A stretch of 64,000 bases of DNA from Beijerinckiaceae bacterium (GTDB lineage Bacteria; Pseudomonadota; Alphaproteobacteria; Rhizobiales; Beijerinckiaceae). Numbering within the stretch: position 1 is the stretch's first letter; every line of letters starts with the position of its first letter. The stretch lies in the NCBI GenBank assembly GCA_027532775.1, contig JAPZTO010000001.1, positions 744,001 to 808,000 on the forward strand, written 5' to 3'. Both the position numbers and the translations under genes were made by a program. The notes beneath the pieces are model-generated. The model worked only from the letters and a program-made list of their open reading frames with translations. It had not been told where the DNA came from and ran no database searches. Below are positions 7,490 through 32,630 of the stretch, piece by piece.

Positions 7490-7501
7490 GCGGCCTCCCT
7501 G

Positions 7502-9840: not shown

Positions 9841-9843
9841 GGC

Positions 9844-9999: not shown

Positions 10000-10009
10000 A
10001 TCGGGCTCC

Positions 10010-10777: not shown

Positions 10778-10780
10778 GAT

Positions 10781-12436: not shown

Positions 12437-12497
12437 GACGGATTACCCCCAGTAACGACAATAAGGGTCCGGATGCCATGGCGGTCCGACGTCCGCA

Positions 12498-12843: not shown

Positions 12844-12965
12844 GCCGTTCCCCCTCCCCTGTCGGATGCTTTCGCAACCAATGGCTGAGCCCCTGCACAT
12901 TGACGTTGCAGGCCCCAGTGAATAGACAGGATGGAGTGCCGAAACCGAGCGGATCGAGGAGCGTG

Positions 12966-15436: not shown

Positions 15437-15493
15437 CTGGAGAGAGGACTGGATCGTTTTGTCGGCGTACCAGCCGCCTCTCCATAATGGAAC

Positions 15494-16324
15494 CTACCCC
15501 TTCACGCCGCCGCTGGTCAGCCCGCTGACCACGCGCTCCTGGAAGATCGCGATGACGATGCAGATTGGCACGATGGCCACGATCAGCGCCGCCGAGATGA
15601 TCGGCCAGGGGAACGAGAACTCGCCCTGATAGAGCGTGATGCCGACCGGCAGGGTGCGGCTCGCCACGCGGGGCGAGAGCGTCAGCGCCAGCAGGAACTC
15701 GTCCCAGGAATTGACGAAGGCGAGAATGCCGGCGGTGAAGACGCCCGGTGCGGTGGGCGGGATCACCACATGCCAGAGCGCGCCGAGCCGCGTGCAGCCA
15801 TCGATCATCGCCGCGTTTTCGAGATCGCGCGGGATATCCTGGAAGAACGAGATCAGCACCAGCGTGCAGACCGGCATCGAGAGCACGGCATGCGGGAAGA
15901 TCAGCGCCCACCAGGTGTTGAGCAGGCCGAGATCGCGCATGACCTGGAAGAGCGGCACCATCATGGAGATGAGCGGGAACATCGCGATGGCGAGCAGGAC
16001 CGAGAGGATGATGCCCGCGCCGGGCAGCCGCAGCCGGACAAGCGCATAGGCGGCCAAAGCGGAGCAGGTCACGCAGAGCAGGGTCGAGAGCACCGCCACG
16101 ACCACCGAGTTGAACAGGAAGCGCAGGATCGGCTGGTCGACGAAGACGCGGATGTAGTTCTCGATGGTCGGCGCCTGCGGAATGATGGTGATGGGCACGC
16201 GCATCAGCTCCACCTCGGTCTTGAACGAGGTGAAAAGGATCCAGAGGGCGGGAAAGAAGCCGTTCGCCGCCACGATCAGGCCGGCAAGGATGATCATCGC
16301 CCGGCGGTTCCGGAGGAGCTTCAT
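15494..16324 (-). CDS. Sugar ABC transporter permease (MalG/UgpE type)
   Basis: 276 residues with six predicted membrane helices and the EAA-loop motif NAAMIDGCTRLGALWHVVIPP near residues 170-190, which docks on the ATPase. It belongs to the CUT1 family for oligosaccharides, glycosides and polyols. ATG 16324 has a GGGAGG SD; a longer frame upstream is not supported. Last gene of the importer operon ATPase-binding protein-permease-permease, 63 bases after its partner. Confidence 0.9.
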   Translation of the reverse strand: MKLLRNRRAMIILAGLIVAANGFFPALWILFTSFKTEVELMRVPITIIPQAPTIENYIRVFVDQPILRFLFNSVVVAVLSTLLCVTCSALAAYALVRLRLPGAGIILSVLLAIAMFPLISMMVPLFQVMRDLGLLNTWWALIFPHAVLSMPVCTLVLISFFQDIPRDLENAAMIDGCTRLGALWHVVIPPTAPGVFTAGILAFVNSWDEFLLALTLSPRVASRTLPVGITLYQGEFSFPWPIISAALIVAIVPICIVIAIFQERVVSGLTSGGVKG

Positions 16325-16387
16325 GTTAGTGCCTCCCCGGATCGCATGGCCGGACGCAAAACCGGAAACCACTTTTGCTGGCCATGC

Positions 16388-17299
16388 TCAGTGCCTCCCC
16401 GGATCACGGCGCGTATGGCGGAGATAAAGGCTGGTGATCACGGCCGACACGAGGAACATCAGCACGGCGAGCGCGGAGCCATAGCCGAGGTCGAGGAAAT
16501 CGATCGTTGTCTTGTGGATATACATGGCCAGCGTTTCGGTGGAATTGCCCGGGCCGCCATTGGTCATCGCATAGGGGATGTCGAAGGTCTGGATCGCCGT
16601 GATGGTGCGGAAGATGAGCGCCACGAAAATGGCTGGCCGGAGCATGGGCAGCGTGATCTCGCGGAATTGCTGCCATTTCGTCGCGCCATCGACCTCCGCC
16701 GCCTCGTAGAAGCTCTTCGGGATGGTCTGCAGCCCGGCGAGCAGCACGAGCGCGACGAAGCTGGACGATTTCCAGATGATGGCGAGGCAGATCGCGAAAA
16801 AGGCGAGGCCGGGCGAGGTCAGCCAGTTCAGCGGTTCGAAGCCGAGGCCGCGCAGCATGGCGTTGGCGATGCCCTGATTGTATTCGAAGAACCAGCGGAA
16901 AATCAGGCCGGCAAAGACGAGCGGCAGCGCCCAGGGCAGGAGCAGGCCCAGCCGCACCGGCCATTTCACCCGGAACGGCTGGTTGGCCAGCAAAGCGAGG
17001 CCAAGCCCGATCACGACGGCGCCGGGCACGGTGACGAGAATGTAGAGCAGGGTATGCCAGACCGCCTCGTGGAAGCGGTCATCGCCGAGCGCCTTCACGT
17101 AATTCTCGAAGCCCACGAAGGGCGTGCCCATCCAGGGTTGGGCGAGATGGTTGAAATGGAACGAGTTCCGGATGAGCTCGGCGATCGGATAGAGCACCAC
17201 CGCCGCCAGCAGCAGGAAGGCGGGCGCCAGCATGGCAAAGCCAAGCCGGCGCTCCGATTTCTCCAGCGGCGTCAGGCGGTGGCGGATCGCGTCGCTCAT
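16388..17299 (-). CDS. Sugar ABC transporter permease (MalF/UgpA type)
   Basis: 303 residues, six membrane helices, EAA loop EAAEVDGATKWQQFREITLPM. The N-terminus is SDAIRHRLTPLEKSERRLGFAMLAPAF, typical of the UgpA/MalF side of CUT1 importers. It starts seven bases after the binding-protein gene, so the two are co-transcribed. Confidence 0.92.
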   Translation of the reverse strand: MSDAIRHRLTPLEKSERRLGFAMLAPAFLLLAAVVLYPIAELIRNSFHFNHLAQPWMGTPFVGFENYVKALGDDRFHEAVWHTLLYILVTVPGAVVIGLGLALLANQPFRVKWPVRLGLLLPWALPLVFAGLIFRWFFEYNQGIANAMLRGLGFEPLNWLTSPGLAFFAICLAIIWKSSSFVALVLLAGLQTIPKSFYEAAEVDGATKWQQFREITLPMLRPAIFVALIFRTITAIQTFDIPYAMTNGGPGNSTETLAMYIHKTTIDFLDLGYGSALAVLMFLVSAVITSLYLRHTRRDPGRH

Positions 17300-17306
17300 C
17301 CGCGCC

Positions 17307-18581
17307 TCACCGGAAGATCGCGCCGAGGCGGTTCGTCATGTCGCCGAGAGCCTGATCGGCGGTCTTGGTGCCGGCCAGGAAGGCATTCATGTTGGTCCGC
17401 ATGATCTCGGAGACTTCGGTGTAGCGCGGTGTCACCGGGCGGGCGCGGGCTGACTGGACCACCGGCAGGGCCTGCTCGAACCATGGATTGGCCTTCAGCA
17501 CCTCGGCATCGGTATAGACGCCCGGAAAGACCGGAAGATGCGAGGCAAGGATGGCCTGCTGCTTGGCGACTTCCGGCGAGGAGAGATAGCGCGCCAGCTT
17601 GGCCGCCTCGGCCTTGTTCTTCGAGAAGGCCGAAACCGCAACCTGCCAGCCGCCGATGCAGGTGGCCTGCTTGTCGGCGGTGAAGCCAGGCAGCGGCACC
17701 ACGCCGATCTTGCCCTTCACGGTCGAATCCGCGTCGTTCTGCAGGCGGTTCCAGACATAGCCCCAGGTCATTCCGAAGATCAGGTTGCCGGCCTGCATGT
17801 TCTGGCGGATGCGGTCCGTCGGGATTTCCGCAAGGTTGGGCGGGGTGACATTGGCTGCCTTGAGGTCAGCCCAGAGCTCGAACGGCTTCTTCGCAGCGGC
17901 AGTAGCGAGATTGAGTTTGCCATCCTTCAGCATCTCCTCGCCCGAGCCCCAGAGCGGGACGAGATAGGTGCAGACGGTGCCCTCGATCGGGGCGCCGGCG
18001 GTCTCGAAGCCGCGGAGATTGGCATTGCCCTCGGCGGTCATGATCTTCCGGGCGGCATCCTTCAGCTCGTCCCAGGTCTTCGGGGGCTGGAGGCCATGCT
18101 TTTCCAGCAGGTCCTTGCGGTAATACAGGAACTGGGCATCGGCGAAATAGGGCAGCGCGATGACCTTGCCATTGACGATATTCGCAGCCCTGTAGGCCGG
18201 GAGATAGCGCGCCATGATCGCGTCCTTCTCGGCGCCGAGATAGGCATCGAGCGGCTCGGCCCATTGCGCGGCCGCCCATTGGGCCGGACGGATGACATCG
18301 ATGAGGATCAGGTCGAGCGCCGAATCCTTCGAGGCGAGCACGGTGTTGAGATATTGCTGCTGCTGTTCCGATGTTGCGCCGCCGACCTCGACCTCGACCT
18401 TCACGTTCGGGTTGGCCTTCATGTAGCCATCGACGATCTGGCGCATCACATCGGGGCGCTGCTGGCCGCCGGTGAAAATGCGCAATGTGGTCTGGGCCTG
18501 GGCGTAGGCGGCGCCGGCCAAGGCGAGGCCTGCGGCGAGGCCCAGCCGAGTCGCCATGCGGCGGGTAAAGCGTGATGTCAT
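17307..18581 (-). CDS. Extracellular sugar-binding protein (family 1 solute-binding, CUT1)
   Basis: 424 residues. A twin-basic signal peptide (MTSRFTRRMATRLGLAAGLALAGAAYAQA) is followed by TTLRIFTGGQQRPD, and the mature protein shows the family pattern with a long second lobe ending in LAGTKTADQALGDMTNRL. Start 18581 has a GGGAGG SD five bases upstream. The ligand cannot be read off; the adjacent isomerase/aldolase operon points to a hexose-like sugar or glycoside. The order ATPase, binding protein, two permeases is also that of sulfoquinovoside importers, which is suggestive only. Confidence 0.93.
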   Translation of the reverse strand: MTSRFTRRMATRLGLAAGLALAGAAYAQAQTTLRIFTGGQQRPDVMRQIVDGYMKANPNVKVEVEVGGATSEQQQQYLNTVLASKDSALDLILIDVIRPAQWAAAQWAEPLDAYLGAEKDAIMARYLPAYRAANIVNGKVIALPYFADAQFLYYRKDLLEKHGLQPPKTWDELKDAARKIMTAEGNANLRGFETAGAPIEGTVCTYLVPLWGSGEEMLKDGKLNLATAAAKKPFELWADLKAANVTPPNLAEIPTDRIRQNMQAGNLIFGMTWGYVWNRLQNDADSTVKGKIGVVPLPGFTADKQATCIGGWQVAVSAFSKNKAEAAKLARYLSSPEVAKQQAILASHLPVFPGVYTDAEVLKANPWFEQALPVVQSARARPVTPRYTEVSEIMRTNMNAFLAGTKTADQALGDMTNRLGAIFR

Positions 18582-18603
18582 GGTGTCCTCCCGTTTGTTG
18601 TTT

Positions 18604-19668
18604 TCAGGCGATCGCCAGCCCGGTTTCCGGATCGAAGAGATGTGCCTTTTCAAGATCAAGCCCGAGCGTCACCTCGCCGCCGGCCCGCAAGGGCGCGGAA
18701 GGCGGGAAGCGCCCGGTCATCTCGACCCCGCCGATCTGCATCAGCGCCAGCGTATCGGAGCCGAGCGGCTCGACGATGACGGTCCGGGCCGGCACGCCCT
18801 CCGGCCCGGCAAGTCCGAGATGTTCGGCCCGGAGACCGAGCAGCACATCCCGGCCGCGCGCCCGGGCGAAAGAGGCCGGCGCCGCGAGGGCCGCACCGCC
18901 CGCCAGCGCGATCGTCGCGGCGTCCGGTGAGATGCGCGCGGGCACGATGTTCATGGAGGGCGACCCGATGAACCGGGCGACGAAGGTCGAGCGGGGCTGG
19001 CGGTAGACCTCGTCCGGCGTGGCAAATTGCTCGACATGGCCCGCCTTGAGGATGGCGATCCGGTCCGCCAGCGTCATAGCCTCGACCTGGTCATGCGTGA
19101 CGTAGATGATCGTCGTGCCGAAACGCTGGTGCAGCTTCTTGATCTCGACCCGCATTTCCGCCCGCAACTGTGCGTCGAGATTGGAGAGGGGTTCGTCGAA
19201 CAGGAAGACCTTGGGATCGCGGACGATCGCCCGACCCATGGCCACGCGCTGGCGCTGGCCACCGGAAAGCTGGCCGGGCTTGCGATCGAGCAGGTGGGTG
19301 ATCTGCAGGATTTCGGCCGCCTCGTTGACCTTCCTCGCGATGGTCGCGGCATCGACGCCGCGCATGCGAAGGCCGAAGCCGACATTCTCCGCGACGGTGC
19401 GATGGGGGTAGAGCGCGTAATCCTGGAAGACCATGGCGATGTCGCGGTCGCGCGGGGGCAGGTCATTGACCACCCTGTCGCCGATGCGGATCGTGCCATC
19501 TGTCACGCTTTCGAGGCCGGCGATCATGCGGAGAAGGGTGGATTTGCCACAACCCGAGGGCCCGACCAGCACGACGAATTCGCCATCGCGGACGGAAAGA
19601 TCGATGCCGTGAATCACCGGCACCGATCCGTAGGCCTTCACCACCTTGGCGATCTCGATGCCGGCCAC
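18604..19668 (-). CDS. Sugar ABC transporter ATP-binding protein (UgpC/MsmX type)
   Basis: 354 residues. Walker [10 protein letters not shown], signature [15 protein letters not shown], Walker [17 protein letters not shown] and switch His in [10 protein letters not shown] are intact; the C-terminal half is the regulatory OB (TOBE) domain found in CUT1 ATPases. The start is GTG at 19668, set by a strong SD (GGGAGGGAG). It is the first gene of the importer operon and is divergent from the aldolase gene, with an inverted-repeat operator at 19759 in the gap. Confidence 0.93.
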
Positions 19669-19758
19669 GTCGCGCTCCCTCCCGCTTCCTTGAGCGTGTG
19701 GGTGAACCCGGAGGCCAATCGCGGGCAGTCCCAACCGCCTGGGTGGAAGCTCTCTCTT

Positions 19759-19779
19759 GTCTTATAACTTATATAAGAC
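19759..19779. promoter_or_regulatory. Perfect inverted-repeat operator between importer and sugar-enzyme operons
   Basis: Arms GTCTTATA and TATAAGAC flank a five-base spacer (ACTTA). The site is in the 202-base divergent gap and in an AT-rich island, so it is placed to control both operons. Spacing and TTATA/TATAA content are compatible with a GntR-family dimer, but no such gene is in the window. Confidence 0.65.
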
Positions 19780-19870
19780 TAATCGTTCTTGGCAATCCAG
19801 CTTTCGTGTCGACAGCCCGAAATATGGCCTGACCGCGCGAAGATCCGAACCCTCCGGAGGAATCGGCCTG

Positions 19871-20884
19871 ATGAAAGCGCTCAGTGCAGGAAAATTGCGC
19901 GGTCTCCGCCGCATGGCGGATGCCACCGGACGGTTCAAGATGACCGCCGTCGACCAGCGGCCGCCAATCATCAATCCGATCGCCGCCGCGCATGGCGGAG
20001 TTGCGCCGTGGGAGGCGGTGGCCCGGTTCAAGACCATGCTGGTGGAGCAGCTCCAGGCGCATTCGACCGCAATGCTGCTCGACCCGAACTATGCCTATCC
20101 GATGGCCGAGCCGGTGCTTGATCCGCGGAAGGGGCTGATCATGACGCTGGAGGATTCCGCCTTCCGCGAGACAGCGGGCGGGCGGCTTTCATCGGAGATC
20201 GACGGCTGGTCTGTCAGCAAGATCCGGCGGATGGGCGCGGATGCCGTCAAGGTGCTGGCCTGGTATCGCCCGGATGCCCCGGCCGAGATCAATGCCCATC
20301 AGCAGGATTTCACCCGCCGGATCGGCGAGGCCTGCAAGCGGCACGACATTCCCTTCCTGTTCGAGCTTCTGGTCTATCCTCTGCCGGGCGAAAAGAACCA
20401 GACCACGCAGTACATCGAGATGGCCGACAAGAAGAGCGCGCTGGTTCTCGAAAGCGTGGCCGAATTTGCCAAACCCGAATATGGCGTCGATGTCTTCAAG
20501 CTCGAAAGCCCCGTTCCCGCCCGCGATTGCGACGGCTCCGCACCGGTCCAGGCCCTGTTCGACGAGATGGGCCGGCTTTGCGGCCGCCCCTGGGTGATGC
20601 TCTCCGCCGGAGCTGGCATGACCGAGTTCAAGGCCGTTCTCGACCATGCCTTCCGCGCCGGGGCCTCGGGTTATCTCGCCGGCCGCGCGATCTGGTCGGA
20701 GGCCTTCAAGGCCTATCCGGACTGGGCGGCAATCGAGGCCGGGCTTGCCGGGCGCGCGGTGGCGTATATGCGCGAGATCAACGCGTTGACCGATGCCCGG
20801 GCCGTGCCATGGTGGACCGCCTGGGATGGGGCCGAACTGGCCGATGCCGACGAGAATTTCCGCCACGCCTACCCGGAATCCTGA
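19871..20884 (+). CDS. LacD-like class I aldolase (tagatose-1,6-bisphosphate / sulfofructose-phosphate aldolase family)
   Basis: 337 residues of the DeoC/LacD fold. The Schiff-base lysine is K210 in VDVFKLESP; AVDQRPP near residue 26 and SAGAGMTEF (phosphate-binding loop) are also typical. The family splits ketose-1-phosphates or bisphosphates into DHAP and an aldehyde; members include LacD and the sulfofructose-1-phosphate aldolases YihT and SqiA. ATG 19871 has a GGAGGA SD. The next gene, four bases on, is a FucI/AraA-type isomerase. No sugar kinase is in the window, so either it is elsewhere or the aldolase accepts an unusual substrate. Confidence 0.82.
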   Translation: MKALSAGKLRGLRRMADATGRFKMTAVDQRPPIINPIAAAHGGVAPWEAVARFKTMLVEQLQAHSTAMLLDPNYAYPMAEPVLDPRKGLIMTLEDSAFRETAGGRLSSEIDGWSVSKIRRMGADAVKVLAWYRPDAPAEINAHQQDFTRRIGEACKRHDIPFLFELLVYPLPGEKNQTTQYIEMADKKSALVLESVAEFAKPEYGVDVFKLESPVPARDCDGSAPVQALFDEMGRLCGRPWVMLSAGAGMTEFKAVLDHAFRAGASGYLAGRAIWSEAFKAYPDWAAIEAGLAGRAVAYMREINALTDARAVPWWTAWDGAELADADENFRHAYPES

Positions 20885-20888
20885 CCCG

Positions 20889-22325
20889 ATGAAGCCCGTT
20901 CTGGTGAAACCCGTTCTGGTTCTTGCCCTGGGGCGTCCGACCTTCGACGTTCCCTTCGCCGAAACCTACGCTGCCGCAGCTTTCGCCCGGCTCGATGCCG
21001 AGGGTTTCACAACCTGTGGGCCGCGCACGCTGCTGTTCGACGCCGCCGCGGCGCGCGAGGCGATTGCCGGTATCGACCCCGCCACCCTTGGCGGCCTCCT
21101 GCTATTGCAGATCACCTTTACCGACGCGTCGATGACGGTGGAGATCGCACGGAGCTTCCCGGGCATCCCCCTCGCGCTCTGGGCCTTCCCTGAACCGCGG
21201 GCCGGCGGGCGGCTGCGGCTCAATTCCTATTGCGGCCTGAACCTTGCCGCCCATGCGCTGGGCCGGGCCGAGGTGCCGCATGGCTGGGTTTTCGCCGCGC
21301 CGGATATGCCGGATCTCGCAAGTTCGATCCGTGCTGCGCTCCGTGTTGCCACCCTCCCCGCACCACCCCTGCGGCAGGCGCGCACCGATGCCGCCCAGGA
21401 GGCTGCCGTGGCTGCGATCGACGACGCCCTGCGCAACCGTCGGATCGGGCTGGTCGGCGAGCACCCGGCCGGGTTCGATACCTGCCGTTTTGATGATGCG
21501 CACGTCACCGGACTGCTCGGCGGTGGCGGCGTGACGCAACTGCCGCTGTGCGATCTCTTCGAGCGGGCCCGCGCGGCGGATGCCGGCACGACCGCGCGTG
21601 ACCTTGCCGAGGCCCGGCGCGCCTATGCCGGCACCGAAGCGGTGGATGAGGGCCAGCTGGAAAAGTCGCTGCGCCTGCTCGAGGGCCTGCGCGGCCTGAA
21701 GGCGGGGCACAATCTCGATGCCTTCGCCGTGCGCTGCTGGCCCGAGACCTTCACCGAATATGGCTGCGCCATTTGCGGGCCGATGGGCATCCTGACAGAG
21801 GCCGGAACGCCTTGCGCTTGCGAGGCCGATGTGATGGGCGCGGTGACGACGCTGCTGGTCAATGCCGCCTCGGGTCAGGCCGGCTGGCTGGTCGACATCG
21901 TCGATATGGACGAGGCCAGCGATACGGGCGTGTTCTGGCATTGCGGCTCGGCGCCGCTTTCGATGCGCGATCCGGAATGCCGGGCGCGGGCGCAGATCCA
22001 TTCCAACCGGAAAATGCCCCTTCTGGCGGAATTCACACTGAAGCCGGGCCGGATCACGATGGCGCGGCTCACCCAGGCCCAGAACGGGCTGGCGCTGGCA
22101 CTCGGCACCGGCGAGGTCATCCGGGCCCCGATGAGCTTCACCGGCACCAGCGCGGTGGTGCGCTTTGATGGCGGGGTGAAGCAGGCCGGATCCCGGTTGA
22201 TCGGCTCGATGCTGGAGCACCATGTCGCCTTCGCCTATGGCGATTTCCGGGCCCCGCTCGAAGCCTGGGCAGCGGCGCGCAGCCTTCCGGTGATCGACCT
22301 GACGCCCGAGGGAGACGCCCCATGA
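20889..22325 (+). CDS. L-fucose/L-arabinose isomerase family protein
   Basis: 478 residues. The N-terminal LALGRPTFDVPFAE and the C-terminal metal centre E312 (CEADVMG), D336 (LVDIVDMD) and H351 (FWHCGSAP) are those of FucI/AraA aldose-ketose isomerases that use Mn2+. The protein is diverged from true FucI (about 590 residues) and is nearer in size to AraA-like members. From memory, SqvD-type sulfoquinovose isomerases belong to this superfamily; identity to those cannot be tested here. It overlaps the oxidoreductase gene by four bases and should convert the imported aldose to the ketose that the neighbouring aldolase pathway needs. Confidence 0.8.
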   Translation: MKPVLVKPVLVLALGRPTFDVPFAETYAAAAFARLDAEGFTTCGPRTLLFDAAAAREAIAGIDPATLGGLLLLQITFTDASMTVEIARSFPGIPLALWAFPEPRAGGRLRLNSYCGLNLAAHALGRAEVPHGWVFAAPDMPDLASSIRAALRVATLPAPPLRQARTDAAQEAAVAAIDDALRNRRIGLVGEHPAGFDTCRFDDAHVTGLLGGGGVTQLPLCDLFERARAADAGTTARDLAEARRAYAGTEAVDEGQLEKSLRLLEGLRGLKAGHNLDAFAVRCWPETFTEYGCAICGPMGILTEAGTPCACEADVMGAVTTLLVNAASGQAGWLVDIVDMDEASDTGVFWHCGSAPLSMRDPECRARAQIHSNRKMPLLAEFTLKPGRITMARLTQAQNGLALALGTGEVIRAPMSFTGTSAVVRFDGGVKQAGSRLIGSMLEHHVAFAYGDFRAPLEAWAAARSLPVIDLTPEGDAP

Positions 22326-23443
22326 GCGCGCGGCCGCTCCGCTACGGGCTGATCGGCGCGGGCATGATGGGCCGGGAGCATATCCGCAATCTCGGCCTGA
22401 TTCCCGGATCCGAACTTGTCGCCATCGGCGATCCAAGCGCCGAACAGGTGGCGCTGTCGATTGCCGAGGCCGAGCGGCATCTGGGGCAGAGGCCGAGCGG
22501 CTTTGCCACGCCGGAAGCGATGCTCGCCGCCGACGCGATTGACTGCGTCGTGATCGCGAGCCCCAACGATACCCATTTCGGTGTGCTCGAAACCGTGCTG
22601 GGCCATTCCCGGCCGCTGGGCATCCTCGTCGAAAAGCCAGTGGTGACACGGATCGAGGATTGCGGCCGGCTGGAGGCGAGGGCGAAAGGCCACAAGCGCC
22701 CGATCTGGGTGGCGATGGAATATCGCTACATGCCGCCGGTGGCCGAGTTGCGCCGCGCCGTCTCGGCCGGCGAGATCGGCAAACTGCGCATGTTCGCCAT
22801 CCGCGAGCATCGCTTTCCCTTCCTCGAGAAAGTGGGCGACTGGAACCGGTTTTCCGAGCGGACCGGCGGAACTCTGGTCGAGAAATGCTGCCATTTCTTC
22901 GATCTGATGCGTCTGGTGGTCGGGTCGGAGCCGGTGCGGGTCTATGCCTCCGGCGCGGCCGATGTGAACCATCGCGATGAACGCTATGATGGCCGGGTGC
23001 CGGATATTCTCGACAATGCCTTCGTCATCGTCGATTTCGCCAATGGATGCCGGGCGAGCCTCGATCTCTGCATGTTCGCGGAGGGCAGCTTTTTCCAGGA
23101 GGAGATCGCCGCAACGGGCGATCGCGCGAAGATCGAAGTGTTCATTCCCGGGCCGGCGCGGTTCTGGCCCGGCGGCGCCGAGCGCGAGAGCGAGGTGGTG
23201 GTCTCGCCGCGCACGCCGAAACGCCCTCTCCGGCGGAAAGTGCATGTGGACGAGGCGATCCTGAAAGCGGGCGACCACCATGGCTCGACCTATTTCCAGC
23301 ATCTCGGCTTCCGGGCGGCAATGCTGGAGGGCGGACCTGTCGACGTGACCCTCGCCGACGGGCTGCAGGCCGTGCGGATCGGGCTCGCCGCCGAGGAAAG
23401 CGCCCGGACGGGCCAGAGCATCCGGCTGGACGCGTCCGGCTGA
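22322..23443 (+). CDS. Gfo/Idh/MocA family NAD(P)-dependent oxidoreductase
   Basis: 373 residues. The Rossmann motif is GLIGAGMMGREH (residues 9-20), the conserved EKP lies near residue 107, and the catalytic pair is in GGTLVEKCCHFFDLMR. The family oxidises sugars or cyclitols at a ring carbon and includes glycosidases that use NAD+ transiently (GH109, and the NAD+-dependent sulfoquinovosidases of GH188). Overlap with the isomerase (ATGA) shows that the two act together. Whether it is a sugar dehydrogenase or an oxidative glycosidase is open. It converges with the MDR gene, four bases apart. Confidence 0.85.
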   Translation: MSARPLRYGLIGAGMMGREHIRNLGLIPGSELVAIGDPSAEQVALSIAEAERHLGQRPSGFATPEAMLAADAIDCVVIASPNDTHFGVLETVLGHSRPLGILVEKPVVTRIEDCGRLEARAKGHKRPIWVAMEYRYMPPVAELRRAVSAGEIGKLRMFAIREHRFPFLEKVGDWNRFSERTGGTLVEKCCHFFDLMRLVVGSEPVRVYASGAADVNHRDERYDGRVPDILDNAFVIVDFANGCRASLDLCMFAEGSFFQEEIAATGDRAKIEVFIPGPARFWPGGAERESEVVVSPRTPKRPLRRKVHVDEAILKAGDHHGSTYFQHLGFRAAMLEGGPVDVTLADGLQAVRIGLAAEESARTGQSIRLDASG

Positions 23444-23447
23444 GCCG

Positions 23448-24452: not shown

Positions 24453-24461
24453 CAGCCTGTC

Positions 24462-25235
24462 CTATTTTGCGGTGAAGCCGCCATCCACGGCGAGTGTCTG
24501 CCCTGTCACATAGGCGGAGGCATCCGAGGCAAGGAAGACGGTCGCTCCGTGCAGATCCTCGAGTTGGCCATTGCGGCCGATCGCGGTCTGCGCCGCATTG
24601 CGGGCCGAACGCTCGGGATCGGCAAAGACCGGCGCGGTGAGCGGCGTCGGGAAGAAGCCGGGCGCGATGGCGTTGCACGTGACGCCGTGGCGCGACCATT
24701 CCTCGGCGATGGCACGCGTGAGCTGGACAACGCCGCCCTTCCCGGCGCCATAGGGCGCGGAATTCGGGAAGGCGCGGTAGCTCTGCAGCGAGGCGATATT
24801 GAGGATTCGCCCCCACCCCTTCGCCGCCATGGCGGGGGCGAGGGCCTGCGCCAGCAGGAAGGGCGCGCGCAGATGCAGCGCCATATGCAGGTCAAAAGCG
24901 GCTGCCGTCACCTCCGGAAAGGGCTGCCGGAGATTCACGCCCGCCGCATTGACGAGAATGTCGGGCTCGCACTCGAAAAGCTTCAGCTGATCGAGGATTG
25001 TCGATGCACAATCGGGCGCCGCGAGATCGACCAGAATGCCCCGGGCGAGAATACCCTCCCCGGTCAGATCCGCAATCGCGCTGGCGGTTTCCTCCTGCCG
25101 GCGTGCGGCCAGCATGATCTCGGCCCCTGCCAGCCCGAGCGCGCGTGCCATGGCAAGGCCGATACCGCTGTTGCCCCCGGTGACAAGCGCTGTCCTGCCC
25201 GTCAGATCGAAAAGGGCGGCGAGGCGGAAGGCCAT
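24462..25235 (-). CDS. Short-chain dehydrogenase/reductase
   Basis: 257 residues, classical [11 protein letters not shown] cofactor motif (about 19-26), NAAG, catalytic Ser in [15 protein letters not shown] (Tyr-x3-Lys) and a PGFFPTPL loop. Sequence character is like gluconate 5-dehydrogenases. Its ATG follows the stop of the HpsN-like gene directly. Paired with a second dehydrogenase (MDR) and an HpsN-like enzyme it recalls the two DHPS 2-dehydrogenases (HpsO, HpsP) that accompany HpsN in sulfopropanediol degraders, but family membership of those is recalled, not checked. Confidence 0.88.
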
Positions 25236-26609
<1,374 letters not shown>

Positions 26610-26614
26610 TCAGG

Positions 26615-27664
26615 TTACTTCTTGTCGAATTCGGTCGCGAAGGCGCGGAGCTTCGGATCCGCCGCAACGCGCTTCATGAAGTCATCGGTGATGTAGGATT
26701 TCGGCTCCGGATTGGCCGGAATCGTGCCGACATCGGTGATGAACTTGCCGATCTCGCCGAACCAGCCATCGACCGTCGAGGCGCCGGCACCACGAGCGAG
26801 GATCCTGAGTTGCTCGTCGAGGCCGAAGACCGGGCGCAGGGCAAATTCCTGGTCCATCGCCCGCGGCGACACCTCGAGCCCGCCCTGCTTGTAGAATTCG
26901 AGTGCAAGCGTGCGGGCCTCGGCCGGGTTTGCCTTGGCCCAGGACCAGCCGCGCAGGAAGACCGCGAGGAACTTCGCGACATCATCCGGCCGCTCCTTGG
27001 CGAAATCCGCCCGGACAATCAGCGCACCCGGGACAATGGCGCCGGCATCGGCACCGGAGCAGAGATATTTCGCGTTGGCGCGCTCCTCGAGGGTGTAGGT
27101 GTTCGGCGCCCAGACACCGGCGAAATCGCCGTTATTCGAGGTCAGCGCCGTAATGATCTGCGCCTGGCCGAGATTGACGAACTGCATGTCTTGGGCGGCA
27201 AGACCCATCTTCACGAGGCATTTCCGGGCGGCGTAATCCACTGTCGAGTTCGTCGTGAGCAGCAGGCGCTGACCCTTGAGCGACGCGGGGTTGGCCTTGA
27301 CCGCGTCGAACTTGTCGCCGCGCACCATCATCGCGTTGGTCTTGGATTCGTCGTTCGTGATGCCGATCGTCAGGATATTGAAGCGCACTGCGCCGAGCAC
27401 TGCCGGCACCGAGCCCGTGCCGCCGACATCCCAGGATTTCGACGGAGCCGCCGCGATCTGCGGCGCGCCGGCCGGGAAGGTGCTGAAATTCGGCGCGAGG
27501 CCGACATCCTTCCACCAGCCCTTCACATTCGCATAGTGGAAGGGCAGCGCCCAGTAGAGCGAGGGCTGGTAGCTGACGCCGATCGGTGTCTGGGCCGTCG
27601 CGGAAAGCGGGGTGGTCGCCGAGAGGGCCGTGGCGAGGGCGAGGCTGGCCAGAATGCGCTTCAT
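26615..27664 (-). CDS. NitT/TauT-family substrate-binding protein
   Basis: 349 residues with a Sec signal (MKRILASLALATALSATTPLSATA) and the SsuA/TauA/NrtA-like fold start: IGVSYQPSLYWALPFHYANVKGWW, then GGTGSVPAVLG. ATG 27664 has a GGGAG SD. It should bind an anionic small organic compound (sulfonate, nitrate, pyrimidine precursor or similar) for the ATPase and permeases encoded upstream. In the operon it is separated from them by the DegT-type gene. Confidence 0.88.
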   Translation of the reverse strand: MKRILASLALATALSATTPLSATAQTPIGVSYQPSLYWALPFHYANVKGWWKDVGLAPNFSTFPAGAPQIAAAPSKSWDVGGTGSVPAVLGAVRFNILTIGITNDESKTNAMMVRGDKFDAVKANPASLKGQRLLLTTNSTVDYAARKCLVKMGLAAQDMQFVNLGQAQIITALTSNNGDFAGVWAPNTYTLEERANAKYLCSGADAGAIVPGALIVRADFAKERPDDVAKFLAVFLRGWSWAKANPAEARTLALEFYKQGGLEVSPRAMDQEFALRPVFGLDEQLRILARGAGASTVDGWFGEIGKFITDVGTIPANPEPKSYITDDFMKRVAADPKLRAFATEFDKK

Positions 27665-27692
27665 GTCTTTTCTCCCTTGTGGTTGCTTGTTG

Positions 27693-28940
27693 TCAAGCCG
27701 GCTGGCGCGGCATCGCGCCAGACGTTGGTATGGCCCCGTCCCGGGCGACGGCTTCGATCGATTCCCGGACGATGGCGGCAATCAGGTCACATTCCTCGTC
27801 GGTCAGGCTCAGCGGCGTGCGGATATCGCAGAGCCCGGCAAGGACATCATGGGTGCGCGAAAGGGCGCCCTGCTCGCCGGCGTAACGCCAATGGCGCGGC
27901 GCGCTGGTGAAGCCGATCTGGCTCCCGGCCCCGAACCATTTGACGGGGACGCCGCGGGCTTTCGCGAGGGCGAGGAAGGTCTCGACACGTTCCGGCGGCA
28001 GGCCGAGAACGGAGAACTGCACCGAAGTGGCCGAGAAATCCTGCGGGCCGCCCCGTTCCGGCACCTTGAGATGCTGGCTGCGGCGCAGCCCGGCGGCGAT
28101 ACGGTCATGGATCGCATTCCAGCGGGCGGCGCGGGCGGGCAATTCGGCCAGTTGAGGGCGCAAAATGGCCGCAGCAAGCGCGCTCATCCGCAGGCTGAAA
28201 TTCGGGACATGTTCGGCAACAGCCTCCAGCGCGGCCGGCCCGGGCGAACTGAGATGCTGGCCATGGAGCATGTAGCTGCCGGAATGAAGGATCGCGCGCG
28301 CCGCCATCTCTTCGTCATCCAGCACCAGGAAGCCGCCCTCGCCCGCATTGAGATGCTTGTAGGTCTGGGCGCTGAAGGCCGCCGCCGCGCCGAAGGTGCC
28401 AATGGTGCGCCCGTTCCAGCGCGCGCAGAGCGAATGGGCGCAATCCTCGACGACCTGCAGGTCGCATTCCGACGCCACCGCCATCACGGCATCCATATCC
28501 GCGAGATGGCCGCGCATATGCGAGAGCAGCAGGACCCGCGCACCGGAGGATGCGGCCTTTCGGCGGAGATCGTCCGGATCGATCACGTAATCCGGGCCAA
28601 TCTCGACAATGACCGGCCGTGCCGCCGCATGGAGGATCGCACCCGGCACCGGGGCCAACGTAAAGCCGTTGACGAGAACCGGATCGCCCGGCTGGACGCC
28701 CAGCACCTTGAGCGCGAGGAACAGCGCGCCGCCGCCGGAATTGACCGCGATGCAGAAGCGACGGCCGAGAAAAGCCGCGAATTCCCTTTCCAGCAACGAA
28801 ACATCGAGCTGGTCGGCACCCATCTCGCCATAGCGGAACAGCCGCCCGCTCCGCATGAGTTCCACCGCGCGGGCAATGCCGGCCTCGGGAATCGGCGTCG
28901 GCTCGGTCAGGTCGCGCATCAGGCGCGCGGGTTCAGACAT
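27693..28940 (-). CDS. DegT/DnrJ/EryC1/StrS-family PLP aminotransferase
   Basis: 415 residues, fold type I. The PLP lysine is in SAQTYKHLNAGEGGFL, with GEGG typical of sugar aminotransferases; VNSGGGALFLAL and VVEDCAHSL (Asp that holds the pyridine N) are in their usual order. The family transaminates keto-sugars, but members act on other carbonyls. Its start overlaps the ATPase gene by eight bases and it lies between transporter genes, so it belongs to the same operon and probably handles the imported compound or a derivative. No nucleotide-sugar genes are near. Confidence 0.83.
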   Translation of the reverse strand: MSEPARLMRDLTEPTPIPEAGIARAVELMRSGRLFRYGEMGADQLDVSLLEREFAAFLGRRFCIAVNSGGGALFLALKVLGVQPGDPVLVNGFTLAPVPGAILHAAARPVIVEIGPDYVIDPDDLRRKAASSGARVLLLSHMRGHLADMDAVMAVASECDLQVVEDCAHSLCARWNGRTIGTFGAAAAFSAQTYKHLNAGEGGFLVLDDEEMAARAILHSGSYMLHGQHLSSPGPAALEAVAEHVPNFSLRMSALAAAILRPQLAELPARAARWNAIHDRIAAGLRRSQHLKVPERGGPQDFSATSVQFSVLGLPPERVETFLALAKARGVPVKWFGAGSQIGFTSAPRHWRYAGEQGALSRTHDVLAGLCDIRTPLSLTDEECDLIAAIVRESIEAVARDGAIPTSGAMPRQPA

Positions 28941-29730
28941 CCTTGAACCCCTTTTCCTCGCGCAGCGACTTCCAGATATGCGTACGCAGATGGACGAAGG
29001 ATTCGAGATCCATCACATCCTCGATCCGGGCATGGCTGTCCCAGTTCTCGCGCTCGCGGACGGCCTTGATGTCGAGCACTTCCTTGATGCGGCCGGGGCG
29101 CCGCGTCATGATCGCCACGCGGTCGGCGAGATAGACCGCTTCCTCGACGGCATGGGTGATGAAGAGCACCGTGCGCGGATTGTGGCGGGCCAGCCGGACA
29201 AGTTCCTCCTGCATCACCACCCGGGTCTGGGCATCAAGCGCGCCGAAAGGCTCGTCCATCAACAGCACTTCCGGATCAAGCACATAGGCGCGGGCAATGG
29301 CCACGCGCTGCTGCATGCCGCCGGAGAGCTGATGCGGGAAGGCATCGACATGGGTCTCGAGGTTCATCAGCTTCAGCGCGCTGGCCACGAGATCATTGCG
29401 CTCGCCCACGGGCAGGTTCTTGTTGCGCAGGCCGAGTTCGATGTTCTCGCGCACGGTCTTCCACGGAAAGAGTGCGAATTGCTGGAACACCACCGCGCGG
29501 TCCGGCCCGGGTGCGGTGACAGGACGGCCATTGACCAGCACCGAGCCGGCGCTGGCGGCCTCGAAGCCGGCGACCATACGCAGGCATGTGGTCTTGCCGC
29601 AGCCGGAGGGGCCGACAATGGCCACGAATTCCTTGTCGGCAATGTCGAGGTTGATGTCATCCAGCGCTTTCACGCCGCCGGTGCCGTGCCCGAAGACCTT
29701 GTCGACATTCCGGAAGCTGATCGACCCCAT
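28933..29730 (-). CDS. NitT/TauT ABC transporter ATP-binding protein (SsuB/TauB type)
   Basis: 265 residues. Walker A GPSGCGKTTC, Q-loop VVFQQFALFPWKTV, signature LSGGMQQRVAIARA, Walker B VLLMDEPFGALDAQTR and switch His LFITHAVEEAV are intact; the FPWKTV and HAVEEA motifs mark the nitrate/sulfonate/taurine subclass. It follows the second permease by nine bases. Confidence 0.92.
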   Translation of the reverse strand: MGSISFRNVDKVFGHGTGGVKALDDINLDIADKEFVAIVGPSGCGKTTCLRMVAGFEAASAGSVLVNGRPVTAPGPDRAVVFQQFALFPWKTVRENIELGLRNKNLPVGERNDLVASALKLMNLETHVDAFPHQLSGGMQQRVAIARAYVLDPEVLLMDEPFGALDAQTRVVMQEELVRLARHNPRTVLFITHAVEEAVYLADRVAIMTRRPGRIKEVLDIKAVRERENWDSHARIEDVMDLESFVHLRTHIWKSLREEKGFKDV

Positions 29731-29739
29731 GGCTGCCCC

Positions 29740-30528
29740 TTACGAATCCAAACCGCGCCGGCGACGAAGCCAGCCCTCGCCCTGACGCAGCAGGACATCG
29801 ATCAGCATGCCGACCAGCCCGATGGCGATCATGCCGGCCATAACGGTGGGCGTCTGGACCGAGCCCTGCGCCTGCACCATCATGAAGCCCACACCGGCGG
29901 CGGCGACGATCAGCTCGGCCCCGACGAGGCTTTGCCAGCCGAGGCCCGCCGAGACGCGCAGGCCGGCAATGATCGAGGGAACGGCCGCCGGCAGCAGAAC
30001 CTCGAGGATCATTCGCGAGGACGGCGTCCCCAGCATGCGGGCGGCCTCGATCAGGCGCGGCTCGACGAACCGCGCCCCGCGATAGGCGTTGATCAGGCAG
30101 GGCGGAAAGGCCCCGGCGAAGATGATCATGATCGGCCCGCCGACACCCGTGCCGAACCAGAGTGCAGCAAAGGGCACCCAGGCGATCGGCGCGATGAAGC
30201 GCAGCCCGTCGAAGATGGGTGTCACGATATCGTCCAGCAGGCGGAAGAAGCCCATCAGCAACCCGAGCGGCACCCCGATGGCCGCCGCCAGCAGCACGCC
30301 ATAGGCATAACGCTGGAAGCTGGAGGCGAGATGGGCCGGCAGGGTGGCGCCAGCGAAGGGTGCGGTCAGCAGATGGACAAAGCGCGACGCGACATCGAGG
30401 GGGCCCGGCAGGAACTGGGCGGGAACGATCCCCGAAACCGACAGGAAACTCCAGAGGCCGATGAAGCTGACGAGGCCGGCAAGGCCAAGCAGCACCGTTT
30501 CGCGAAAGCCGAGAGGGGGCGATGTCAT
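29740..30528 (-). CDS. NitT/TauT ABC transporter permease (second)
   Basis: 262 residues, six membrane helices, SsuC/TauC-type loop FVEPRLIEAARMLGTPSSRMILEVLLP. ATG 30528 lies two bases after the stop of the first permease. A much longer frame through this region in the same phase runs through the other permease and is not the gene. Confidence 0.9.
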   Translation of the reverse strand: MTSPPLGFRETVLLGLAGLVSFIGLWSFLSVSGIVPAQFLPGPLDVASRFVHLLTAPFAGATLPAHLASSFQRYAYGVLLAAAIGVPLGLLMGFFRLLDDIVTPIFDGLRFIAPIAWVPFAALWFGTGVGGPIMIIFAGAFPPCLINAYRGARFVEPRLIEAARMLGTPSSRMILEVLLPAAVPSIIAGLRVSAGLGWQSLVGAELIVAAAGVGFMMVQAQGSVQTPTVMAGMIAIGLVGMLIDVLLRQGEGWLRRRRGLDS

Positions 30529-30530
30529 GG

Positions 30531-31316
30531 CTAGTCCCTCGCCGCCACGTTCCAGGCAAGGGCCCTCCGCTCGACCCGCGCGAGGAGCAGCGTCGTCACC
30601 CAGCCGAGGATGCCGACCGTGACCATCCCGACAAGGATCATCCCGGGATAGATATCCTGCTGCGCCATGTTCAGCACGAAACCGACACCGACCAGCGCGC
30701 CGACGAGTTCCGCTGCCACCAGCGTGGTCCAGCTTGCCTGAAGTGACAGGCGCAGGCCGGTGAAGATCATCGGCAGGGAGGCCGGGAGGATGACCTCGCG
30801 CACCATGCGCAAGCGCGGTGTGCCGAGCATGCGGGCGGCCTCGAGGATCGGCTTGTCGATATTCCGCACGCCGGTGAAGGCATTGATGACCGACGGCACG
30901 AAGGCGGAGAACCAGATCACGAGGATCTTCGCCGCATCCCCGAGGCCGAGCCAGAGAATGGCCAGAGGAATCCAGGCGAGCGGCGGGATGGGCCGGATAA
31001 TCAGGAAAACCGGATTGATAAAGGCCTCGACCCGGCGGTTCCAGCCCATCCAGAGGCCCAGCGGCACCCCGGTCAGCACGGCGACGGTGAAGCCCATCAG
31101 CACGAGCTTCAGGCTGTGGAATGCGTGGCTGGCCAGGGTCGAGCCGGCATAGCCGCGCCCGTTGATCTGCTTCAGCGAGAGCCAGAATTCCGCCGGCGAG
31201 GGAAAGCGCGCGCCGGTGACGAGCCCGGTGAAGGTGGTCAGCCCGAACCACAGCACAACGAGACCGATCACGGTCATGCCGCCGATGAGTGTCCTGCGAC
31301 TGGCCACGGACGCCAT
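30531..31316 (-). CDS. NitT/TauT ABC transporter permease (first)
   Basis: 261 residues, six membrane helices, coupling loop NIDKPILEAARMLGTPRLRMVREVILP, parallel to that of the second permease, showing a heterodimeric channel. It is the promoter-proximal gene of the operon running to 23448. Upstream is the 176-base divergent gap with three operator-like palindromes shared with the LacI gene. Confidence 0.9.
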   Translation of the reverse strand: MASVASRRTLIGGMTVIGLVVLWFGLTTFTGLVTGARFPSPAEFWLSLKQINGRGYAGSTLASHAFHSLKLVLMGFTVAVLTGVPLGLWMGWNRRVEAFINPVFLIIRPIPPLAWIPLAILWLGLGDAAKILVIWFSAFVPSVINAFTGVRNIDKPILEAARMLGTPRLRMVREVILPASLPMIFTGLRLSLQASWTTLVAAELVGALVGVGFVLNMAQQDIYPGMILVGMVTVGILGWVTTLLLARVERRALAWNVAARD

Positions 31317-31353
31317 GCAGCGCGACCTCCCTGATTGTCTCGCGCTTTTCTTT

Positions 31354-31367
31354 TGAAAGCGCTTTCA
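31354..31367. promoter_or_regulatory. LacI-family operator O1 (perfect palindrome)
   Basis: TGAAAGCGCTTTCA is a perfect 14-base palindrome with the central CG that LacI-family proteins prefer. It lies 37 bases upstream of the first permease start, so the bound repressor would block that promoter. Confidence 0.8.
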
Positions 31368-31412
31368 TACAGAGTGATCGGACCGACATGGCGAGTCAAC
31401 GGGTGTTGAGGA

Positions 31413-31426
31413 TGAAAGTTTTTTCA
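31413..31426. promoter_or_regulatory. LacI-family operator O2 (degenerate)
   Basis: TGAAAGTTTTTTCA matches O1 at 11 of 14 positions and lies 59 bases from it centre to centre, compatible with DNA looping. Confidence 0.55.
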
Positions 31427-31469
31427 ACCGCCATTGCCTCGTTTGGCGCGACGGGATATCGGACCCTGC

Positions 31470-31483
31470 TGAAATTTCTTTCA
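31470..31483. promoter_or_regulatory. LacI-family operator O3 next to the repressor gene
   Basis: TGAAATTTCTTTCA matches O1 at 11 of 14 positions, lies 57 bases from O2 and ends 9 bases before the lacI-type start, overlapping the region of its ribosome binding site. This would give autoregulation. Confidence 0.55.
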
Positions 31484-31492
31484 CGAGGTGCG

Positions 31493-32509
31493 ATGGCCAG
31501 GAACCGGATCCGATTGAGCGAAGTTGCGCGCGAAGCCGGCGTTTCGCCGGCCACGGTTTCGCGTGCGATCAGCCAGCCGGATCTGCTTTCGCCGGAGACG
31601 CTGGCCCGCGTCCGGCGGGCGGCGGACCATCTGGGCTATCGCCCCGATGCTGCCGCGCGGGCCTTGGCCTCCGGGCGCTCGATGACGATCGGCGCGGTGA
31701 TGCCGACACTCGACAATGCCATTTTCTCCAAGGCTTTGCAGGCGATGCAGGCTCAACTGGCCGAGGATGGCTACCAGCTGCTGGTCGCCTCGCATGATTA
31801 CAGCAAGGCCGCCGAGGCCGAATGCATCCGCACGCTTCTGGCGCGCGGTGTCGACGGGCTGATCCTGGTCGGGGCGGAGCGGATTGCCGAGGCCGCGCAA
31901 CTGCTTGCGCAATCCGGCCTTCCGGTGGTCATGACCTGGTGCGCACCGGACGGGGCGCCCTCGGTGCTGGTCGATAACGAGCATGCCGGCCTGCTAGCGA
32001 CCCGGCATCTGATCGCGCTTGGCCATCGCCGGATCGGGGTGATTACCGGCGCGACGCGTTTCAATGACCGCCAGCGCGGGCGCTATCGCGGCGCGCGCCG
32101 CGCGCTGGAGGAAGCCGGCCTGACGCTGCCGCCGGCCCTTGCCTGCGAGCAGGCGACCACATTGGCCGGCGGCCGGATGGGCTGCGCCCAGTTGCTCGAC
32201 CTCGCCGAGCCGCCCACAGCCATTGTCGGCGGGATCGATCTCATCGCCATCGGCTGCATGGTCGAGGCACAGGCCCGCGGCCTCGCCATTCCGGCGGATC
32301 TCTCGGTGGCGGGGATCGACGATCTCGACATGTCCGCGCATGTCTCGCCCTCGCTGACGACAGTGCATGTGCCGACGGCAAGGATCGGCACCGAGGCGGC
32401 GCGGATGATGGTCGCCATCCTGCGGGACGAGCCCGGCCCGACGACGCTGACGCTGCCGGTCGACCTGATCGTCCGCCGCTCCACCGGACCGGCGCCGGCC
32501 CGGGGATAA
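31493..32509 (+). CDS. LacI-family transcription regulator
   Basis: 338 residues. HTH at about 8-27 ([20 protein letters not shown]), hinge helix LASGRS near 58-63 and a periplasmic-binding-protein-like effector domain ending in [12 protein letters not shown]. The HTH residues SPATVSR fit operators of TGAAA-type palindromes. ATG 31493 is the start that begins the HTH normally; upstream in-frame starts overlap the operators. It probably represses the NitT/TauT-HpsN operon and itself. The effector domain is of the GntR (gluconate) type, for which sugar acids or small polyols are usual ligands. Confidence 0.9.
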
Positions 32510-32553: not shown

Positions 32554-32630
32554 TGGCGCACCCGGCAGGATTCGAACCTGCGACCTTTGGATTCGGAATC
32601 CAACACTCTATCCAGCTGAGCTACGGGTGC
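32554..32630 (-). tRNA. tRNA-Arg (anticodon CCG)
   Basis: Cloverleaf on the minus strand: acceptor GCACCCG / CGGGTGC, discriminator G and encoded CCA, D-arm, anticodon stem TTGGA/TCCAA with loop TTCCGAA (anticodon CCG, reads CGG), T-arm with GTTCGAATC. 77 bases in total. Confidence 0.97.

Follow-up and report, generated by a model that had tools for sequence, protein, structure and literature searches.

Which sulfonates a Beijerinckiaceae bacterium might take up, and how far it might break them down, is the question raised by an island of transporter and enzyme genes in the window studied here (the whole analysed stretch of 64,000 nucleotides, positions 744001-808000 of contig C15 in a 3.80-Mb genome). 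Sulfoquinovose, a plant sulfosugar, and C3 sulfonates rank among the largest organosulfur flows, and many characterised sulfoquinovose degraders excrete 2,3-dihydroxypropane-1-sulfonate (DHPS) or sulfolactate. The island has two halves, spanning 13989-23443 and 23448-31316, and a sequence-only reading had proposed that it imports a sulfosugar and oxidises a C3 sulfonate. This proposal is supported, with the difference that the halves appear to be two separately regulated modules and no single linear pathway. Judging from sequence, we consider it very probable that the island supplies the uptake and the upper pathway of a two-branched system for mineralising sulfonates, the rest of which would lie elsewhere in the genome. 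Gene content, family resemblance, active-site residues, conservation and a common operator carry this view, and from them we infer the substrates, the fluxes, the regulation and the role of a DegT-family aminotransferase.

The left half encodes a Gfo/Idh/MocA protein whose closest PDB sequences are 8qc2 (SqgA, 452 bits), 8qc3 (446 bits) and 8zn9 (406 bits, carrying only the name 'oxidoreductase, putative'); the next match, which is also the best inositol dehydrogenase, reaches 67 bits. In the alignment with 8qc2, the sulfonate triad R166/L170/K172 and the active-site residues K107, Y136, E189, H193 and H321 are identical at all eight positions. These residues come from PMC10755693 (here and below, cited papers are represented by the parts of their text available to us) and were mapped by hand with a chain-to-paper offset of 13, under which Glu163 of that paper could not be placed in the alignment. 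By these matches and residues, the protein is a predicted GH188 sulfoquinovosidase. Similarly, among PDB sequences the solute-binding protein of the CUT1 ATP-binding cassette (ABC) importer gives 412 bits with SmoF, which binds sulfoquinovosyl glycerol, versus 210 for the runner-up. The sulfonate identity had been proposed to fall if the best characterised relatives proved to be ordinary arabinose, inositol or histidine enzymes, which for most parts of the island they are not; the aldolase, at 344 bits, does clear the cut-off (184) of NCBIfam PRK12858, a subfamily named 'tagatose 1,6-diphosphate aldolase', and the fold of the isomerase resembles arabinose and fucose isomerases.

The sole NCBIfam match of the isomerase is the sulfoquinovose isomerase SftI (NF048012), and no match was found for it among PDB sequences. 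Its AlphaFold2 model, built from 39 sequences (predicted local distance difference test 91.9, predicted template modelling score 0.92), matches L-arabinose (AraA) and L-fucose (FucI) isomerases with probability 1.00. E286, E312, H351, H444 and H445, which may correspond to the AraA metal ligands, are kept in 39 of the 39 sequences. The class I aldolase encoded ahead of the isomerase scores 326 bits with 8tnf, 128 with LacD and 66.5 with the YihT family among PDB sequences, and the lysine of its VFKLE motif, presumably the Schiff-base lysine, lines up with LacD. Naming 8TNF as a sulfofructosephosphate aldolase was considered and given up, a literature search for 8TNF having yielded no relevant paper. 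All genes named by the sequence-only reading are present at their coordinates and on their strands according to Pfam and NCBIfam profile matches and gene calls, and the two halves do converge at 23443/23448; for the isomerase, a start near 20889 is preferred to 20793. The aldolase probably starts near 19871 and not at 19757, the start of the mechanical ORF, with a predicted operator occupying 19759-19779; a coding-score script places the start at 19913. The sequence-only reading overlooked an aldose 1-epimerase gene that belongs to the set, whose product lies above the NCBIfam PRK11055 subfamily cut-off, lies below the galM equivalog cut-off and is 69% identical to its counterpart in a Rhabdaerophilum calidifontis locus (L040).

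A scan of genome contigs with the isomerase alignment yielded at least 551 confirmed relatives, the best 80 of which were kept as L-numbered loci; the isomerase-aldolase set, in part with a kinase, is carried by many Alpha- and Gammaproteobacteria. Gene calls in these relatives were scripted and miss genes, and kinase counts were corrected by tblastn. Ten of 289 genomes of the class, the source included, have an isomerase match, and the closest loci by isomerase among the matches listed belong to Rhabdaerophilum sp. SD176 (L038, apparently an isolate) and two Beijerinckiaceae metagenome-assembled genomes (87-88%). The aldolase is present in 67 of the 80 loci (tblastn), in 60 of these directly upstream of the isomerase on the same strand, whereas GH188 is found in 49 by gene call and in 57 by tblastn, six of the latter matches being only 33-34% identical and probably other Gfo/Idh enzymes. 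Gene calls place the epimerase family in 33 loci and PfkB in 62; HpsN, described below, occurs in L037-L039 only among the 80, many of which have short flanks. These three loci are syntenic with about 10.5-32.3 kb of the window, their long pieces being 89-91% identical in DNA, which marks the source as a Rhabdaerophilum-like alphaproteobacterium. Because synteny extends to three related genomes and the aldolase stands beside the isomerase in most relatives, the gene arrangement is not due to chance. About 470 bp at 15024-15493, overlapped by a small open reading frame (ORF) at 15108-15629, are unaligned in L037 and L039 and mostly present in L038.

A sugar kinase and a sulfo-lyase, noted as missing from the window by the sequence-only reading, have candidates on other contigs. 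Among seven PfkB (PF00294) and two GD_AH_C matches in the genome, one of each lies on contig C13, about 2 kb apart. The C13 locus (L012) carries on its minus strand genes for a sulfolactaldehyde (SLA) dehydrogenase, ComC, SlcC, a PF03601 exporter, SuyB and SuyA, followed by a GntR-UTRA regulator on the plus strand and PfkB on the minus strand; SAF-domain SuyA and GD_AH_C SuyB stand side by side, as in the sulfolactate sulfolyase SuyAB. CuyA is encoded on C17 (NCBIfam NF052482, 513 bits, curated cut-off 450). The C13 proteins resemble those of the single-locus sulfoquinovose cluster of R. calidifontis (kinase 58%, SLA dehydrogenase 83%, ComC 70%, SlcC 79%, SuyB 90% and GntR 51% identity), and the remaining PfkB matches in the genome reach 24-32% to that cluster's kinase, save for a 44-residue fragment at 45%. 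The R. calidifontis locus (L040:5536-19618) holds the mutarotase, solute-binding protein, kinase, aldolase, isomerase, GH188, GntR, SuyB, SlcC, ComC and SLA dehydrogenase together, so the set appears to have been split or rearranged in the clade of the window. A second CUT1-type solute-binding protein gene begins beside the C13 kinase (L012:12124-13425), where a further sugar importer may lie.

The two contigs are linked by a 21-bp palindromic pattern, which reads GTCTTATAACTTATATAAGAC ahead of the aldolase and GTCTTGTATAAGACATAAGAC between suyA and gntR on C13. Allowing up to one mismatch, the genome contains no further copy (reversed-pattern control, 0). In the relatives, the pattern is found without mismatches in 11 of 80 loci and with up to three in 40 of 80, and at the latter threshold there are 74 sites in their 1.40 Mb versus 10 in one mononucleotide shuffle. 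Since the operator is common to only two genome places, the aldolase and suy operons probably form one regulon, whose GntR effector would be a common intermediate; adjacency and the relatives suggest a place in it for the kinase. Such an operator makes regulon membership predictable where genes lie scattered. The predicted LacI-type operator of the right half is the perfect palindrome TGAAAGCGCTTTCA, a single genome site at up to one mismatch that is kept in L037, L038 and L039. A single regulator for both halves was rejected, as the promoter of the right-hand (hps) operon lacks the GntR-type operator and the LacI-type palindrome occurs once. With a separate LacI-type palindrome at the hps operon and the GntR-type operator elsewhere, the two halves are probably regulated apart, and would meet at sulfolactate.

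In the first branch of the proposed pathway, the CUT1 transporter would import sulfoquinovosyl glycerol and the GH188 enzyme would hydrolyse it, after which the mutarotase would equilibrate the sulfoquinovose anomers and the isomerase convert sulfoquinovose to sulfofructose. The C13 PfkB kinase would phosphorylate sulfofructose, and the aldolase would cleave the product to dihydroxyacetone phosphate and SLA. On C13, the SLA dehydrogenase would then form sulfolactate, SlcC and ComC would invert it and SuyAB would release sulfite, which the PF03601 exporter may remove.

The second branch would be encoded by the right half. Its eight genes (31316 to 23448) share a strand, are separated by no more than 65 bp and resemble a single operon. 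The HisD-family protein scores 703 bits with CpHpsN (8v35) versus 241 with the best HisD. Its GRYAH at residues 123-127 fits the G-R-Y-A/S-H motif with the sulfonate-binding His126 of PMC11382572, at which HisD has GSAPL, and it keeps Glu318, His319, Asp352, Lys353, the zinc ligands Gln248, His251 and His411, and Ser226 (positions in our protein are one above that paper's numbering throughout). Beside hpsN lie a short-chain dehydrogenase/reductase (SDR) and a zinc-type medium-chain dehydrogenase/reductase (MDR) similar to RpHpsO and RpHpsP, respectively. Among PDB sequences, the MDR scores 364 bits with 8wwd, to judge by the 8wwd/8wwe/8wwf series presumably RpHpsP, versus 109 with the next, and the SDR 308 bits with 9pvq, 267 with RpHpsO (8wwf) and 254 with a gluconate 5-dehydrogenase, a small margin. 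In the published system, HpsO and HpsN act on R-DHPS and HpsP on S-DHPS (PMC11131964). By analogy, the LacI-controlled operon would import C3 sulfonates via its NitT/TauT transporter, and HpsP, HpsO and HpsN would oxidise DHPS to SLA and R-sulfolactate, joining the first branch at SuyAB. Aminosulfonates such as cysteinolate may be admitted to this branch by the DegT protein.

Several observations weigh against these assignments. With its 246 bits, the isomerase misses the SftI equivalog cut-off of 700, because of which we do not file it as SftI and treat it as a candidate that would work like SqvD/SftI; its Pfam match is under the gathering score. The best solved relative of the aldolase, 8tnf, carries no function in its name, and HpsO is poorly separated from gluconate 5-dehydrogenases. 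On C13, the only NCBIfam models matched are of ribokinase and IolC type for the kinase and a galactarate dehydratase model for SuyB, all below cut-off, and the kinase gene is convergent with gntR and has its own upstream stretch, which lacks a copy of the operator. This last point, together with the lack of a PfkB match in the range of the window or in the syntenic L037-L039, would suit a kinase-free route in which the aldolase splits unphosphorylated sulfofructose into dihydroxyacetone and SLA, a new form of sulfoglycolysis in the clade. We regard such a route as very unlikely, considering that C13 carries, next to gntR and suyAB, a PfkB gene whose product is 58% identical to the R. calidifontis cluster kinase, and that 40 of the 50 loci spanning 19 kb or more have PfkB by gene call, a number that tblastn rescue raises to 45 (by both methods it was not found in L037, L038, L039, L093 and L097). 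Slighter still is the chance that the left half serves another sugar, be it L-arabinose, inositol, tagatose or another sulfosugar such as sulfofucose. The AraA/FucI fold of the isomerase and the tagatose-bisphosphate subfamily score of the aldolase would fit that explanation, against which stand the GH188 protein with its intact sulfonate triad and the SmoF-like binding protein; for sulfofucose, the published route resembles an Entner–Doudoroff pathway (dehydrogenase, lactonase, dehydratase and aldolase), and the part of PMC12421959 available to us reports no isomerase activity detected there.

DHPS oxidation, the sequence-only account of the right half, leaves the DegT gene unexplained. At an E-value limit of 1e-40, 16 of the 289 class genomes, the source included, have a DegT match, and we compared 45 regions collected by DegT similarity (17 from class genomes, 8 of 11 plasmid matches and 20 further ones, with weaker second copies mostly left out). 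By tblastn, cuyA and a racemase gene are present in 12 of the 45, and 11 of these also have a HisD-like gene, which in two more regions (L135 and L137) occurs without cuyA. The 13 regions with a HisD-like gene comprise nine with a Tau-type importer, three with tripartite ATP-independent periplasmic (TRAP) transporter genes and one with neither, and all 13 HisD-like proteins keep GRY[AS]H. For comparison, 20 regions fetched by HpsN similarity were drawn from 34 matching genomes; several end at contig ends, and four (L260-L263) lack the sulfonate motif and probably encode other dehydrogenases. Here, the SDR and MDR genes occur in 12 regions, TRAP genes in 12, suyB in eight, Tau-type genes in one and DegT in none. 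The contrast between the two sets of counts means that DegT travels with Tau-type importers and HisD-like enzymes and not with ordinary hpsNOP; in the window, the two associations occur together. DegT was accordingly rejected as a normal hpsNOP member (0/20 regions, or 4/24 when four DegT-linked regions from the same 34 genomes are counted). Thr226 versus Ser226 was likewise discarded as a marker of cysteinolate versus DHPS, since it fitted the DegT-linked HisD-like sequences but Thr also occurs in ordinary hpsNOP regions. In the open-licence literature, our search found no paper describing the DegT-HisD-like-Tau cassette.

Microalgae contain cysteinolate as an abundant solute (PMC8703288), and roseobacter aminolipids carry it as their head group (PMC11631085); its biosynthesis has been termed not established (PMC8319176), and it has also been measured in Pelagibaca bermudensis, a marine bacterium (PMC9695272). 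Tentatively, the DegT-HpsN-NitT/TauT set, with cuyA and the racemase elsewhere and with hpsO and hpsP here, might be a cysteinolate catabolic system, a possibility that includes the following route. DegT would remove the amino group at C2, leaving 3-hydroxy-2-oxopropanesulfonate. HpsO or HpsP might, as a guess, reduce this isostere of dihydroxyacetone phosphate to DHPS, the substrate for HpsN; in cassettes with cuyA, oxidation of the amino alcohol or ketone towards cysteate would fall to the HisD-like enzyme. Weighing against this, HpsO and HpsP are described as acting at the C3 hydroxyl to yield sulfolactaldehyde (PMC11131964), 31 of the 45 DegT regions have neither cuyA nor a HisD-like gene (one of them, L138, has Tau-type genes), and the DegT tree alone gives no support for a sulfonate-specific family, because linked and unlinked proteins intermingle in it. 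In this midpoint-drawn tree of 49 rows, one clade (100/99) unites the window protein with its three orthologues, a second group (96/85) takes in 41 other rows, and the remaining four are distant paralogues. The same 31 regions and the mixed tree would suit a DegT with no link to sulfonates, such as a sugar aminotransferase that has ended up in the operon, as would the generic scores against solved DegT enzymes (best 108 bits) and the one annotated region of the 31, L196, where the DegT gene comes after one for a HAD phosphatase, with glmU and glmS adjoining. We think such a chance capture rather unlikely, given that the gene is conserved at 93-95% in the three syntenic loci L037-L039 and that HisD-like enzymes and Tau-type importers recur alongside it in Alpha-, Beta- and Gammaproteobacteria (with TRAP genes instead in the gammaproteobacterial case). 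It is also doubtful that DegT acts only as a sulfopyruvate-cysteate aminotransferase, the unidentified Coa step, whose sulfopyruvate would be passed on to CuyA on C17 without any role for cysteinolate. The genome does encode a CuyA above cut-off, cuyA shares its region with the racemase gene in the 12 DegT regions counted above, and the available text of PMC11382572 gives the aminotransferase gene as unknown in R. pomeroyi; on the other hand, the window operon lacks both cuyA and racemase genes, in L135 and L137 the neighbour of DegT is a HisD-like gene and no cuyA match lies in range (L135 does contain a different PALP-family gene), and among the 12 cuyA regions only L184 shows a SlcC/ComC match, located at the far edge of that region, no search for SlcD having been made. 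If the cysteinolate reading is true, it supplies candidate genes for cysteinolate turnover, and the related DegT of Rhodobacteraceae becomes a candidate enzyme for cysteinolate head-group synthesis in roseobacter aminolipids. The DegT homologue of L196:4195-9402, directly after its HAD phosphatase, may be an aminotransferase of cysteinolate biosynthesis, or else a sugar enzyme without relation to it. A second HisD-like gene on C17 (48% to HpsN) was considered as a cysteinolate enzyme and dropped, its neighbours being a branched-chain-type ABC importer and a thiamine pyrophosphate enzyme; with a LysR regulator, they make up what looks like another catabolic operon (L211:5865-15011, C17:909000-928000).

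The features of the island and the SuyAB genes are listed below.

Table 1. Features of the island and of the associated C13 locus (window positions unless a locus is named)
Feature	Position	Strand	Basis
Aldose 1-epimerase, candidate sulfoquinovose mutarotase	13989..15038	+	Pfam Aldose_epim 271 bits
CUT1 ABC permease	15494..16372	-	Pfam BPD_transp_1
CUT1 ABC permease	16388..17299	-	Pfam BPD_transp_1
CUT1 solute-binding protein, SmoF-like	17307..18659	-	best PDB sequence match SmoF 7nbz
UgpC/MalK-type ABC ATPase	18604..19734	-	NCBIfam PRK11650 494 bits, cut-off 432
21-bp palindromic operator GTCTTRTA-N5-YATAAGAC, predicted site of C13 GntR regulator	19759..19779		genome pattern search
Class I (DeoC/LacD) aldolase, candidate 6-deoxy-6-sulfofructose-1-phosphate aldolase	19871..20884	+	PRK12858; start inferred
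AraA/FucI-fold isomerase, candidate sulfoquinovose-sulfofructose isomerase (SqvD/SftI-like)	20889..22325	+	NF048012 and fold
GH188-family NAD-dependent sulfoquinovosidase, SqgA-like (Gfo/Idh/MocA), predicted	22322..23443	+	PDB match and active-site residues
MDR dehydrogenase, HpsP-like (S-DHPS dehydrogenase)	23448..24452	-	PDB 8wwd
SDR dehydrogenase, HpsO-like (R-DHPS dehydrogenase)	24462..25235	-	PDB matches
HpsN, R-DHPS-3-dehydrogenase (HisD family)	25236..26549	-	CpHpsN match and residues
NitT/TauT solute-binding protein	26615..27664	-	Pfam NMT1; TIGR01728 SsuA 94 bits, cut-off 163.5 not reached
DegT-family aminotransferase, candidate cysteinolate aminotransferase	27693..28940	-	Pfam DegT; homologue neighbourhoods; tree
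NitT/TauT ABC ATPase	28933..29730	-	profile matches
NitT/TauT permease, TauC-like	29740..30528	-	profile matches; mechanical ORF 29740-31389 longer, overlaps next gene
NitT/TauT permease, TauC-like	30531..31316	-	profile matches
Perfect palindrome TGAAAGCGCTTTCA, predicted LacI-family operator of hps operon	31354..31367		beside lacI
LacI-family regulator	31493..32509	+	Pfam LacI and Peripla_BP_3; divergent from hps operon; mechanical ORF start 31289, start by gene call
GD_AH_C SuyB	L012:8646-9938 (C13)	-	adjoins SuyA
SAF-domain SuyA	L012:9952-10239 (C13)	-	adjoins SuyB

On its left, the island adjoins genes for the cbb3 cytochrome oxidase (FixN, FixO and FixP), then FixG and a P-type ATPase (4723-13715), a stretch ended by a Crp/Fnr regulator gene (13059-13715). 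Directly past the LacI gene at its right edge lies a tRNA-Arg (CCG) gene (32554-32630), a possible integration site.

Taken together, one genome would hold candidates for every step from a sulfolipid-derived glycoside to sulfite, spread over two operator-sharing loci and a LacI-controlled operon. Like the sulfo-Embden–Meyerhof–Parnas (sulfo-EMP) pathway with GH188 SqgA in Arthrobacter sp. AK01, the sulfosugar branch would combine a GH188 sulfoquinovosidase with a kinase, an aldolase and an SLA dehydrogenase; Arthrobacter, however, has YihS and YihT homologues and excretes sulfolactate (PMC10755693, PMC8873060), whereas here the isomerase is of AraA/FucI type, the importer is SmoF-like and SuyAB is encoded in the genome. 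The likeness extends to the Y160 GH188 cluster of Actinobacteria bacterium IMCC26103, with its fucose isomerase, sulfofructose kinase, sulfofructosephosphate aldolase, SLA dehydrogenase, phosphoglycerate-dehydrogenase-like gene, SuyAB and ABC transporter (PMC11465081), although that set forms one cluster with Tyr at the position of Leu170, while ours retains Leu in GH188 and is spread over two contigs. A FucI-type isomerase is likewise found in the sulfo-EMP2 pathway of Firmicutes (SqvD, SqiK, SqiA), where SqiK belongs to PF00365 and SqiA to the class II family PF01116 (PMC9594981, PMC12890257); here, the aldolase belongs to PF01791 and the candidate kinase to PF00294 (the rest of the genome was not screened for PF00365 or PF01116). 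By family only, this pairing of a PF00294 kinase, located outside the window, with a class I PF01791 aldolase is that of a hybrid sulfo-EMP pathway. Since hybrids of sulfo-EMP and sulfo-EMP2 enzymes have already been described (PMC9594981, PMC12890257, PMC13372026), as has the IMCC26103 cluster, the sulfosugar branch would be a variation on described systems. The second branch shares HpsN, an SDR HpsO and an MDR HpsP with the hpsNOP operons for DHPS, of which that of C. pinatubonensis has a major facilitator superfamily uptake gene and adjacent suyAB (PMC11382572, PMC11131964); unlike these operons, ours combines NitT/TauT uptake with DegT and has its suyAB at a distance.

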